64,000 nt of DNA from Propionibacteriaceae bacterium (GTDB lineage: Bacteria; Actinomycetota; Actinomycetes; Propionibacteriales; Propionibacteriaceae): the NCBI GenBank assembly GCA_031271975.1, contig JAISUR010000044.1:1-64000 (forward strand), in the 5' to 3' direction. A program made the translations under genes and the position numbers. How positions within the stretch are numbered: the first letter of the stretch is position 1; each line of letters begins with the position of its first letter. Shown piece after piece: positions 14,660-57,494 of the stretch. The notes below the pieces were generated by a model. The model saw only the letters and a list, made by a program, of their open reading frames with translations, was not told the origin of the DNA and searched no databases.

Positions 14660-14850
14660 AGGGGTGCCCCTGCCGGGGCACACGGACTGCGTCCGAGATC
14701 CCGGAACACCACCCCACAAAGTTCTTCGATACTCTGCTCGGACCCCGGAACACCGCCCCACAAAGTTCTTCGATACTTTGCGGGGATGACGGAACAAGCC
14801 CGGGATGACGGAACAAGCCCGGGATGACGCAACGAACCCGGGATGACGGG
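14660..14850. repeat. Compound dispersed-repeat cluster between convergent genes
   Basis: The whole 202-bp gap between the HAD gene and the alcohol dehydrogenase is repeats. It opens with GGGGTGCCCCTGCCGGGGCAC and GGACTGCGTCCGAG, as also seen at 57427-57462. A 37-bp unit follows twice (14700-14736 and 14744-14780, two mismatches). Three 19-bp units beginning GGGATGACGG come next (14783-14801, 14802-14820, 14821-14839), then a last GGGATGACGGGG. No gene is present. Confidence 0.85.
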
Positions 14851-28358: not shown

Positions 28359-28368
28359 CGTCGGTACC

Positions 28369-28408
28369 GGACTACGTCCGGAGATCCCGAAACAAGTTCG
28401 GGATGACG
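28369..28408. repeat. Dispersed palindromic repeat copy
   Basis: GGACTACGTCC and AGATCCCGAAACAAG-TTCGGGATGACG type copy between the groES control region and the TSUP gene. Its CCGAA/TTCGG stem keeps pairing. Confidence 0.75.
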
Positions 28409-52101: not shown

Positions 52102-53313
52102 CTACAGTTCCGCCCGATAGGGGAACACGCTGGGCAGGCCGCCCGTGTGCCAGAACAAGACGCGCTCGTAGGCGGCAACGCCAGTTCCGGAACGCAACTC
52201 GCTGAGCAGGCCGGCGAAGGCCTTGCCGGAATAGACCGGGTCCAGCAGGATGCCCTCTCGGGACGCCAGCAGGCGCACCGCTTCACGCATGCCATCGGTG
52301 GGGACGCCGTAGCCGGCGCCCAGGGCGTGGTCGGCAACCCGCAGGTGGACTTCTCCTTGGGGCAGGCCCAACGCCCACATGTCGGCGATGATCTGCCGGA
52401 TGCCAGCTTCGGCGCCGGGAGCCGGCTCGTCCACACACATGGCTACTAGCTCGATCGGGGAGCCCAGCGCGGCCAGGCCCGCTGCCAGGCCAGCCGCCGT
52501 GCCATTGGAGCCGTTGGCCACCACAATCGCTTGCGGCAAGTCGTCGGGCAGCAGCGTCTCGTGCAACTCCAAGGCGGCGCGGGCGTAGCCGAGCGAACCC
52601 AGGGCGTTGGAGCCGCCCATCTCGATGACGTAGGCGTCGCGTCCCGCGGCGGCCAACTCGTCCGCCGCCGCCTGGATCGATTCGACCGTGTTGCCGGGGT
52701 AGACGCGGACGTCCGCGCCGAGCAGTTCGTCCAGCCAGACGTTGCCGCCGTTGCGGTATTCATCCGTTGGCAGATGGCCTTCGTGCAGGCCCAGCACGCA
52801 GCGTAGGCCGAGGCGCGCACACGCTGCCGCCGCCTGCCGGGCGAAATTGGACTGGAACCCGCCGCCGGTCACGATTGTGTCGTGGCCCTTGGCGAGGGCG
52901 TCAGCGAGCAGGTATTCCAGTTTGCGCACCTTGTTGCCGCCAGAGGCCAGGCCAGATTGGTCGTCGCGTTTTATCCACAGGTCGGTCCGGGGGACGGGCG
53001 CATCTTCGATGCGCATGGGACTGCGCGTGAGCAGTTGCTCCACAAGCGCGGGATCGGGCGCATCTTCGATGCGCATGGGACTGCGTCCCAAGATCCCGGA
53101 ACGAGTCCGGGATGACGGGGGGGGGGGTGTTGGGGATGACGGGGGTAGGGGTGTTGGGGACGACGCGGGTGGGGGTGTTGGGGACGACGCGGGTGGGGGT
53201 GTTGGGGACGAGCAGGGATCGAGACGGGTGAGGCGATGGGCGGGCGTGGGGAAGAAGCCGAGCGAGACCCTCGGGATGCTGCCTAGAAACTGGGCCAGCG
53301 CTGCGGCGGTCAT
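52102..53313 (-). CDS. D-cysteine desulfhydrase / ACC-deaminase family PLP enzyme with in-frame repeat insertion
   Basis: Degrades D-cysteine (or a related amino acid) to pyruvate, ammonia and sulfide. 403 residues. The start (IPRVSLGFFPTPAHRLTRL) and the core from about residue 107 (DLWIKRDD, GGNKVRKLEYLL with the PLP Lys at ~128, GGGFQSNFARQ, MGGSNALGSLGYARAALEL, GYGVPTDGM, ILLDPVYSGKAFAGL, HTGGLPSVF) match DcyD. Between about residues 34 and 106 lies foreign, repetitive sequence: four 8-residue SSPTPPPA-type units, the dispersed repeat read as SRTRSGILGRS, and a duplicated SPMRIEDAP. ATG 53313 overlaps the upstream stop (ATGA). Without the insert the length would be normal (~348). It may be active, inactive or phase-variable. 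Confidence 0.85.
   Translation of the reverse strand: MTAAALAQFLGSIPRVSLGFFPTPAHRLTRLDPCSSPTPPPASSPTPPPASSPTPLPPSSPTPPPPSSRTRSGILGRSPMRIEDAPDPALVEQLLTRSPMRIEDAPVPRTDLWIKRDDQSGLASGGNKVRKLEYLLADALAKGHDTIVTGGGFQSNFARQAAAACARLGLRCVLGLHEGHLPTDEYRNGGNVWLDELLGADVRVYPGNTVESIQAAADELAAAGRDAYVIEMGGSNALGSLGYARAALELHETLLPDDLPQAIVVANGSNGTAAGLAAGLAALGSPIELVAMCVDEPAPGAEAGIRQIIADMWALGLPQGEVHLRVADHALGAGYGVPTDGMREAVRLLASREGILLDPVYSGKAFAGLLSELRSGTGVAAYERVLFWHTGGLPSVFPYRAEL
52996..53220. repeat. Repeat insertion inside the desulfhydrase-like gene
   Basis: Contains a 30-bp perfect direct repeat (52996-53025 and 53056-53085, 60 bp apart), one dispersed-repeat copy (53080-53116), an 11-base G run (53117-53127) and four 24-bp tandem units (53112-53135, 53136-53159, 53160-53183, 53184-53207), two of them identical. 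The 5-mer GGATC occurs at 53051-53055 and 53216-53220, exactly 165 bp (55 codons) apart, which may mark the insertion. Confidence 0.85.
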
Positions 53314-54494
53314 TTGGCGGCGGCGGCGAAGGCTTGCCGCAGGTCGGCAATCAGGTCGTCGGAGTCTTCCAGGCCCACGGCCAGGCGGACCAAGTCGGCC
53401 GGTATGGCGGCTGCGGAACCGCTCTTTTGGGGGTGCGTCATAGCGGCCGGGTATTCGATCAGCGACTCGACCGCGCCCAGGGAGACGGCCAACAGGAACA
53501 CCTTTGTGGCTTCGCAGATGGCCTTGGCCGCCTGGGCCGAACCCACCTGGAAGGAGACCACCGCCCCGAAGCCGTCCATCTGTTCGACGGCGGTCTGGTG
53601 GCCGGGATCATTGGGCAAGCCTGGATAGCGCACCCGAGTGACTTGCGGGACAGTCTCCAGGAATTCGGCGATGATTTGGGCGTTCGCGCAGGCGGCGCGC
53701 ACCCGGGCGTCGAGCGTCTTTAAGCCGCGTTGCCCCAACCAGCAGTCGAACGGGCTCGGGATCGCGCCGGTGGCGTTCTGCCACCAGTAGGCCTCGGCGG
53801 CAACCAACCCCGTTTCGGAGGCGCCTGGACGGCCCAACTCCAGGCCGGGAGCAAACACCGCCGCTCCCCCGACCAGGTCGGAGTGGCCGCCGATGGCCTT
53901 CGTAGTGGAATGCACGACCACGTCCGCGCCCAAAGTCAGCGGGCGCTGCAGGGCCGGCGTCGCGAAGGTGTTGTCCACAACGAGGAATGCGCCGACGGCA
54001 TGCGCGATGGCGGCTGCGGATTCGATGTCGATGATGTCGAGCAGCGGATTGGACGGCGTCTCCAGCCAGACCACCCGCGGCCGCAACTCCCCCGCGGCGT
54101 TGGCCAGCGCGACCGTGTCAGTGGCGTCCAAGCCGTGGGCCAGCCGGCATTCGGCGGGGAGCAGTTGGTTGAACATGCGGTACGTGCCGCCGTAGACATC
54201 CTGGGAATAGAGCACCCTTTCTCCCGGCTGCACGAGCGCCCGCAACACCGTGTCGGTGGCCGACAGCCCGCTCGGGAAAGCCAGCGCGGATTCGCCCTCC
54301 TCCAGGGAAGCGAGCGCGGCCTGGTAACCGTCACGCGTCGGATTGCCGGAACGCGAGTAGTCGTAGCCGCCGCGCGGCACGCCGACCTGGTCCATGACGT
54401 AGGTGGAAGCGAATGTGACCGGCGGGACGACCGCGCCCGTGATGGGATCGGGCTCTTGCCCGACGTGGATCGCGCGCGTGGAGAACTCAGGCAT
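53310..54494 (-). CDS. metB: Cystathionine gamma-synthase/lyase family PLP enzyme
   Basis: Acts in cystathionine/methionine/cysteine interconversion. 394 residues from ATG 54494, overlapping the ATPase stop by 8 nt. PLP Lys199 in HSTTKAIGGHSD; YDYSRSGNPTRDG, ALAFPSGLSAT, PSNPLLDIIDI and LGAVESLIEYPAAMTH are diagnostic. Synthase, gamma-lyase and beta-lyase cannot be separated with confidence by sequence alone. Position after a cystine-type transporter makes a lyase role plausible. Confidence 0.85.
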   Translation of the reverse strand: MPEFSTRAIHVGQEPDPITGAVVPPVTFASTYVMDQVGVPRGGYDYSRSGNPTRDGYQAALASLEEGESALAFPSGLSATDTVLRALVQPGERVLYSQDVYGGTYRMFNQLLPAECRLAHGLDATDTVALANAAGELRPRVVWLETPSNPLLDIIDIESAAAIAHAVGAFLVVDNTFATPALQRPLTLGADVVVHSTTKAIGGHSDLVGGAAVFAPGLELGRPGASETGLVAAEAYWWQNATGAIPSPFDCWLGQRGLKTLDARVRAACANAQIIAEFLETVPQVTRVRYPGLPNDPGHQTAVEQMDGFGAVVSFQVGSAQAAKAICEATKVFLLAVSLGAVESLIEYPAAMTHPQKSGSAAAIPADLVRLAVGLEDSDDLIADLRQAFAAAAK

Positions 54495-55341
54495 GGCCGC
54501 CGACCCCATGGCCTTCCCCACTGGAGATCAGCGGGGCAGGGGCGTCAACGGCACTGGTCTCGGTCGGACTCACGAACGGCGCGTCCGAATCGGCCAGCGG
54601 ATCCAACACGCGGCGCAGGAATTCCTGCGTGCGCGGCTGTTTGGGGTTGAGCAGCACCTGCTGCGGGTCGCCCTGCTCCACGATCTGGCCCTGGTCCATG
54701 AAGACGGCCTGGTTGGCGACTTGCGTGGCGAAGTGGATTTCGTGGGTCACCACGACCATCGTCCACCCCTGACGGGCCAGGTTGCGCATCACCTGCAGCA
54801 CGTCGCCGACGATTTCCGGATCCAGCGCCGAGGTGGGCTCGTCGAAAAGCAGCAGTTTGGGCTGTAGGGCGAGCGCCCGGGCGATGCCCACGCGCTGCTG
54901 CTGGCCGCCGGACAACTCGTGAGGGAAAGCGCCGGCGCGGTCCGCCAGGCCGACCTGCTCCAACAGCTCCATGCCGTAGCCAACGGCCCATTCGCGCGAC
55001 TTGCCCTGCCCGTAAATGGGGCCCTCGATGACGTTTTCCAGGGCAGTGCGGTGCGGGAAGAGGTGGTGGGCCTGAAAGACGAAGCCGGTCTTGGCGCGCA
55101 GCTCGTGGATCTCCTGCTTGGACGGTTTCGAGACCCAGTCGACGCTGGTGGAGTCGATGGTGACCCGGCCCGACTCGGGCTTTTCCAGGCCGTTGACGCA
55201 GCGCAGCAGCGTGGTCTTGCCGCACCCCGACGGCCCGACGATGACCGTCACCGACCCCGCCGGGACGTCCAACTGGATGCCGCGCAGGACTTGGTTGTCG
55301 CCGAAGGACTTGTGCAGTTCGCGGATTTCGAGCAGCGCCAT
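54487..55341 (-). CDS. Polar amino acid (cystine-type) ABC transporter ATP-binding protein
   Basis: 284 residues. Walker [11 protein letters not shown]-loop [19 protein letters not shown], signature [15 protein letters not shown], Walker [15 protein letters not shown], switch VVTHEI. GlnQ/TcyN group. A C-terminal extension of about 35 residues after the usual end (from DSDAPF on) is Ser/Pro-rich. It is 1 nt after the permease stop region, and metB overlaps its end. Together with permease and binding protein it makes a full importer. Confidence 0.93.
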
Positions 55342-57349: not shown

Positions 57350-57375
57350 ATCGTGAAGTCTAACTACCTTCCCTG

Positions 57376-57494
57376 TCATGCCGGACTCGTTCCGGCATCT
57401 TGGGACGTAGTCCCATGCACCCCGCAGGGTGCCCCTGACGGGGCACACGGACTTCGTCCGAGATGACGCGGCGCGTTTGTCCGGGATGACGGGC
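57376..57494. repeat. Compound dispersed-repeat block
   Basis: An inverted copy (GTCATGCCGGACTCG-TTCCGGCATCTTGGGACGTAGTCC) is joined to GGGTGCCCCTGACGGGGCAC and GGACTTCGTCCGAGATGACG and a last TCCGGGATGACGGG. The GTGCCCC/GGGGCAC hairpin and the GGACTTCGTCC dyad are the same modules as at 14660-14700. It fills most of the 194-bp divergent gap. Confidence 0.8.

Follow-up and report, generated by a model that had tools for sequence, protein, structure and literature searches.

Gene content at the locus

The window, i.e. the whole stretch of 64,000 nucleotides of Propionibacteriaceae DNA analyzed here, carries on its reverse strand a gene for a PLP enzyme of the D-cysteine desulfhydrase/ACC-deaminase family, whose reading frame runs through repeat DNA amounting to about 195 bp, or 65 codons, an insert of 165 bp and a further piece of 30 bp (Table 1). 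The stop codon of the upstream neighbour, a cystathionine gamma-synthase-like orf (53310..54521, reverse strand), overlaps the start codon of the gene as ATGA, in agreement with an earlier, sequence-only reading of this DNA. The product matches Pfam PALP (1.3e-47, aa 110-391) and the solved D-cysteine desulfhydrase 7ysk (2.8e-62); it scores 260.6 bits with NCBIfam TIGR01275, below the cut-off of 289.4, and 287.9 bits with the CuyA model, under its 450 bits. Judged by these matches the enzyme is clearly related to the D-cysteine desulfhydrase family, with a substrate that is only putative. Its nearest homologues come from a Propionibacteriaceae MAG (L048; 72% identity over the best segment) and, as a fragment (L032), from the same-genus genome G023; among named relatives the homologues place the Propionibacteriaceae MAG nearest, followed by Amycolatopsis.

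Table 1 Features of the desulfhydrase-like gene and of the repeat DNA in and next to it
Feature	Position	Strand	Basis	Remarks
D-cysteine desulfhydrase/ACC-deaminase-family PLP enzyme gene	52102..53313	-	ORF	403 aa
In-frame insert	53050..53214	-	absent from homologues	165 bp including one CGATCCC copy; 55 codons
CGATCCC, 5′ copy	53215..53221	-	sequence	possible target-site duplication
24-bp satellite units GTCRTCCCCAACACCCCCACCC	53109..53211	-	TRF	period 24, 4.3 copies; SSPTPPPA-type peptide
H1, CGTC-tagged REP hairpin	53092..53117	-	pattern search	CGTC-ATCCCGGA-CTCGT-TCCGGGAT-C
H2, spacer hairpin of the element	53076..53091	-	sequence/fold	TTGGGACGCAGTCCCA
H3, variant of the element's third hairpin	53058..53074	-	sequence/fold	GCGCATCGAAGATGCGC
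CGATCCC, 3′ copy	53050..53056	-	sequence	possible target-site duplication
Second H2/H3 fragment	52996..53025	-	duplication search	about 30 bp, 10 codons (RSPMRIEDAP), in-frame ATG
Intergenic element copy just past the stop codon	52016..52057	-	pattern search	

Anatomy of the insert

The repeat DNA separates the N-terminal FPTP segment from the conserved DLWIKRDD motif. The sequence-only reading had placed it between the first strand of the fold and the active-site lysine; it lies instead ahead of both the IKRDD strand and the GGNK lysine. From the TP motif to DLWIKRDD there are 86 residues in the window protein versus 13-25 in 39 homologues, and positions 59 and 66 of 7ysk bracket six residues where the window protein has 78, in an alignment whose N-terminal piece is weak (5.5 bits). 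None of the 42 homologues inspected (part of 80 homologous loci), L048 among them, carries the insert, and the same-genus fragment from G023 is likewise without it. The in-frame insertion proposed earlier is borne out by this, orthologues sharing the stretch having been named there as the observation that would tell against it.

Read along the gene strand, the order is CGATCCC, four 24-bp units, H1, H2, H3, the second CGATCCC, about 24 bp of probably native sequence and a second, 31-nt H2/H3 piece. The element copy is truncated after H3. The 31-nt duplication CGCAGTCCCATGCGCATCGAAGATGCGCCCG, found at 53055-53085 and again 60 bp away at 52995-53025, consists of hairpins two and three of the element itself. 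At up to three mismatches the genome contains 124 matches to the palindrome, that at 53084-53117 among them (none for the reversed control pattern). The palindrome, the 24-bp units and the duplication, reported earlier as separate pieces, are all present but belong together: the insert is one composite element copy of satellite units, REP hairpin, two spacer hairpins and a duplicated piece. Compared with shuffled sequences, folding gave z of -11.25 for one full dimer of the element, -4.56 for the copy in the gene when the two H3 pieces are both included and -2.34 for the single copy.

The two CGATCCC direct repeats stand exactly 165 bp, or 55 codons, apart; the spacing and the intact frame given by the sequence-only reading thus hold, the repeat itself being this 7-bp motif. 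They are perhaps a target-site duplication, a chance match being possible as well. When the flanks are joined at these copies, the sequence reads ...FFPTPAHRLTRLDPALVEQLLTR... and stays in frame, and removal of both the 165-bp insert and the 30-bp piece leaves 15 residues between the RL and DLW/ELW motifs, compared with 12 in L048 and G023.

Such a large insert might belong to a decaying pseudogene that is still open by chance and in which the insertion was an early lesion. Codon usage is coding-like through the greater part of the enzyme, aa 31-80 being of non-coding type (-0.24 to -0.74 per codon in blocks of ten, against the coding usage of the window), a homologue was found in only 2 of the 24 same-genus genomes examined, so that the genus can do without the enzyme, and one otherwise invariant column is changed from P to E. 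However, of 36 columns without variation among the other 39 members of a 40-sequence alignment the protein agrees at 35, and of the 22 columns conserved at 90-99% it agrees at 19 (it departs at three); its 403 codons hold neither stop nor frameshift, and the core shows dN/dS of 0.13-0.21, a value obtained at dS of 1.0-1.9, near saturation, and mostly reflecting the time before the insertion. In addition, ten unrelated open genes (see below) would all have to be caught at the same early stage. We regard decay as very unlikely.

It is also unlikely, if somewhat less so, that translation restarts at an ATG supplied by the element (MRIEDAP..., codons 80 and 100), giving an N-terminally shortened enzyme with the repeat confined to the mRNA. 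In-frame ATGs do stand just before both H3 copies, and for other repeats of the REP type it has been noted that many N-terminal copies may be extragenic, with translation possibly starting downstream (PMC3733652). Against this, orthologues share the part encoded ahead of the insert, FLGSIPRVSLGFFPTPAHRLTRL, under constraint (dN/dS 0.18-0.29, over 22-25 codons only and with the same limits on dS), all 39 homologues have a TP-type segment ahead of DLWIKRDD, and the ATGA overlap would fit translational coupling to the upstream gene. Nor can a downstream start account for the interior inserts of HypF, LarB, DnaE2 and an MptA-like protein. The conserved N-terminal segment argues for translation of the desulfhydrase-like protein through the insert, and we infer that an active enzyme results.

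The repeat family in the genome

The census of the repeat covered 471,669 bases round known copies, of a genome of 2.70 Mb, and gave 345 H1 units in 165 clusters; the assembly is a draft, and unit numbers in tandem arrays may be wrong. The search pattern fixed GTC and most of the stem (up to three substitutions) and assumed the loop length, leaving the first base of the tag and stem pair 3 free. The free base before GTC was C in 280 of 345 units, and the tag read CGTC in 276 and TGTC in 28. The stem is of 8 bp, with pair 1 A-T in 301 and pair 2 T-A in 302 of 345 and each of the eight pairs formed in 302-341; the free third pair co-varies in a compensatory manner (C-G in 186, G-C in 134). Of the 5-nt loops, 193 read CTTGT and 104 CTCGT, and the tail after the stem is CTC in 131 units, CTT in 92, CCC in 46 and CCA in 9.

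Pairs of units within 170 bp are outward (head-head) in 59 cases, inward (tail-tail) in 14 and tandem in 107. Dimers whose unit starts lie 85-94 bp apart had a length of 113-117 bp in 33 of the 34 measured. Their spacer contains H2, H3 and other hairpins, and a longer form has the hairpin CCCCACAAAGTTCTTCGATACTTTGCGGGG in addition. A GTCxTCC-type head stands 18-45 nt upstream of 114 of 340 copies, as against 103 of 5000 random places. In 46 of these 114 (46 of 340 copies, about one in seven), the copy in the desulfhydrase-like gene included, the GTCxTCC unit is something other than a further H1 copy, and 39 of the 46 are of 19-24 bp. The 24-bp units in the gene resemble these satellites preceding element copies and are not foreign to the element.

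In 322 of 345 copies exactly five of the six reading frames through H1 are open. The in-frame copies are read in differing frames, and HPGLVPGS, VIPDLFRD, SSRTRSGI, IPEQVRDD and RNESGMT are five readings of one palindrome. Full dimers are open in one to four of six frames, not far from shuffled sequences (mean 2.3). Further copies in the window lie at 2350-2373, 28367-28407 and 57374-57407, and tandem 44-bp and 19-bp arrays of element modules occupy 14702-14849, between called orfs.

Among the genomes searched the element has been found in one species only. A 30-nt pattern with up to two mismatches had 207 matches in its own genome and none in 40 others, 24 of them of the same genus; a 32-nt pattern had 114 and none in 395 other genomes of the phylum (one shared with the set of 40). 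Recent transfer from Brevundimonas, Ruegeria or other named sources was considered and dismissed, as 27 named genomes, including that of L048, gave no match at up to one mismatch. Carriage by phage found no backing either (no exact match of one 38-nt pattern in viral contigs). A RAYT transposase as the mover was rejected as well: a search with Y1_Tnp (PF01797) had no match in the genome and, as a control, matches in 5 of 14 named genomes. Rfam, run on five stretches, did not identify the repeat as a known structured RNA. Its only match was 5_ureB_sRNA at the urease locus (L184 4366-4663, forward strand, 68.8 bits), antisense in the urease region.

Other genes carrying the element in frame

The earlier suggestion to look for other in-frame copies was fruitful. 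Within the stretches fetched, orfs open through a cluster and with coding-like codon usage on both sides were scanned for; eight clusters scored at least 0.11 and the next 0.01. Altogether ten genes carry the element in frame, coding for the desulfhydrase-like protein, HypF, DnaE2, LarB, maltokinase, a MurJ-kinase fusion, an MptA-like mannosyltransferase, a LicD-like protein, a CbiQ-like protein and urease, i.e. nine in addition to the gene in the window. Each of the ten products is matched by a Pfam or NCBIfam model with E < 1e-6, the match of the MptA-like protein being below the curated cut-off.

The inserts lie at varied positions in these proteins. In HypF the alignment with 3vth is split at the insert (query 391|434 versus 395|401), and in LarB that with 7mj0 (query 65|165 versus 82|117, the first piece weak at 16 bits). 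According to Pfam, the insert falls inside the HHH_6 match in DnaE2, a protein with a linker of naturally variable length in the genus (a few to over 60 residues), between the N-cap and kinase matches in maltokinase, for which the alignment with the solved relative is one piece downstream of the insert, and between the two domain matches in the MurJ-kinase fusion. In this last orf (L273 1092-4745, reverse strand) a tandem array of AGASGVSPSPVI type leads into the element in the linker. The MptA-like protein contains two element copies, with the insert within a weak TIGR03459 match, and the CbiQ-like protein has three tandem hairpin modules in frame after its CbiQ match at aa 58-269 (nine further stretches). 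In the LicD-like protein, where coding status is judged by codon usage and open frame, the insert precedes the LicD domain in an N-terminal region without family match, and the orf contains another cluster besides.

A degenerate, possibly in-frame copy (L278 3074-3097, reverse strand) was noticed in the orf adjoining larB, LarC-like by eye; it appeared only with four substitutions allowed and was left out of the ten. The element also overlaps the 3′ ends of genes, where it encodes C-terminal tails of a cytidine deaminase, UreG, a lactonase and RdgB (L179, L277, L267 and L243); these are the four sites at which Pfam indicates separate neighbouring genes (see below).

The linker of HypF between Sua5 and Kae1, measured from the RGYAP-type motif to LAVGGELKNTF, is of 50 residues here versus 12-16 in six same-genus orthologues (L280-L284, L290), with L285, L287, L291 and L292 outside the comparison because the motifs did not fit; by match coordinates it is short also in G020, G022 and G436. 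Three other genomes, G007, G008 and G019, have 41-49 residues at the same linker, and the DNA there holds in frame a different palindrome, TTCGACAAGCTC / AGCYTGTCGAAGGG of the CCCTGAGCTTGTCGAAGGG type (L288, L289, L286). Palindromes of this type stand in the same three genomes also in the zinc-finger-to-Sua5 linker of HypF. In G007, G008 and G019 the palindrome may derive from one shared ancestral insertion.

In the urease operon, matches to UreB (aa 41-135) and UreC (from 207 onward) share one open frame (L277 2424-4736, reverse strand; G000:C33:8423-10735), and alignment with 4g7e falls in two pieces, UreB to 130 and UreC from 207. The 75 codons from LQIR of UreB to RDRY of UreC are largely the longer form of the element and satellites; they contain no ATG and no GTG, but three TTG, with one more TTG in LQIR. 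Urease was matched in only two of 30 same-genus genomes (own included), this one and G005, and in the latter ureB has its own stop and ureC its own ATG. The element thus seems, on this comparison of sequences, to weld the two urease genes into one.

Reading frame, selection and the preferred explanation

Copies in ten of ten genes are in frame, but this is not a free count, as an open frame was a condition of the search. The fairer figure comes from sites at which both flanking frames run straight into the element: eight of these are in-frame genes and three have flanks in different frames. Of 53 flank pairs given by a scan on codon usage, the eight in-frame genes and 17 pairs read by eye (four of these tested by Pfam) were covered, and in these 25 no gene broken out of frame was found. 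The three pairs in different frames, together with one looser pair, are separate neighbouring genes according to Pfam. Since about one third would be expected in frame if insertion ignored it, eight to nil points to selection, and selection rather than choice of site would explain the frame.

Repeats are the usual places of assembly misjoins, and this genome is in 49 contigs, so that chimeras joining gene halves through the repeat have to be considered. Yet in the desulfhydrase-like gene, HypF, LarB, DnaE2 and urease both sides correspond to a single homologue or operon, correctly ordered and with the frame kept, which chimeras are not expected to do every time; completeness is 99.86 and contamination 0.1. 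An artefact of assembly is hardly credible as the explanation.

The reading that we hold to be highly probable is that a REP-like element inserts widely and that its gene-internal copies persist only if the frame is preserved and the site is a permissive linker. A REP-like palindromic element would have spread within one species, in a manner of movement that we can only infer, and a composite copy would have landed in the PLP enzyme, in a variable loop near the N-terminus, and may have duplicated the 7-bp CGATCCC. It would have persisted there because 165 + 30 bp leave the frame intact, because H1 can be read in five of six frames and because additional residues are tolerated in the loop. At least nine other genes have received the element in the same way, and from this recurrence wide insertion followed by purifying selection would be the rule.

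A broader reading can be offered only tentatively and is rather less probable than its opposite: that a protein-compatible selfish element builds new working protein, with an obligate UreB-UreC fusion through a linker of about 70 residues that is largely element-coded, and with interdomain linkers as recurrent landing sites for the palindrome of a given lineage. The ten genes in one genome, several with insert-free relatives, provide material on the frequency and the sites at which selfish DNA extends proteins. Whether a repeat creates functional protein sequence could be tested by simple expression of the fused urease and of HypF, with its linker targeted twice.

Comparison with known repeat families

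No open-access title on such elements in Actinobacteria was found. Rickettsia palindromic elements (RPEs) recur across several Rickettsia species, whereas the present element has been found in one species only. RPE-1 and others are described as palindromes inserted in frame into proteins that are unrelated and likely to function (PMC3733652), and in-frame copies in ten unrelated, otherwise conserved genes are alike in this respect, by description and not by sequence. The likeness to RPEs suggested by the sequence-only reading holds in architecture, the CGTC REP super-family comprising RPE-4 and RPE-6 of Rickettsia as well as dRS3 of Neisseria, as stated in those passages of Di Nocera et al. 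(2013; PMC3733652). GTAG REPs with their RAYT transposases are, according to the same source, short high-copy palindromes near genes and sometimes within them; the element described here differs from them in its CGTC tag and in the lack of a PF01797 match in its own genome.

The closest parallel is offered by the CGTC repeats themselves. In the passages concerned (PMC3733652) they have an unpaired CGTC or TGTC tag at one end, a stem of 8-9 bp starting with A-T and T-A pairs, a loop of 4-5 nt and short unpaired tails, mostly CCA; head-head dimers predominate and head-tail ones are negligible, the spacers are structured and there is no dedicated transposase. In-frame intragenic copies encode 20-30 amino acids, or 43-82 in clusters, with DnaE2 among the targets. 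Hosts named there are Proteobacteria, Chlorobi, Bacteroidetes, Spirochaetes and Thermotogae, and no actinobacterium. Set against this description, our element differs in its host, an actinobacterium as judged by its nearest named relatives, in its CTC or CTT instead of CCA tail, in its many tandem pairs, in its satellites of 19-27 bp and in the fusion of UreB and UreC genes through the element. It shares the tag, the 8-bp stem starting with A-T and T-A, the 5-nt loop, the excess of outward over inward dimers and the structured spacers, and likewise the in-frame intragenic copies, DnaE2 as a target and a RAYT transposase not having been found. Except for its tail and tandem pairs, the palindrome would fit the CGTC-tagged REPs by tag, stem, loop and outward dimers, and in-frame insertion of REP-like elements is thereby extended to an actinobacterium, a host absent from those named in these passages.
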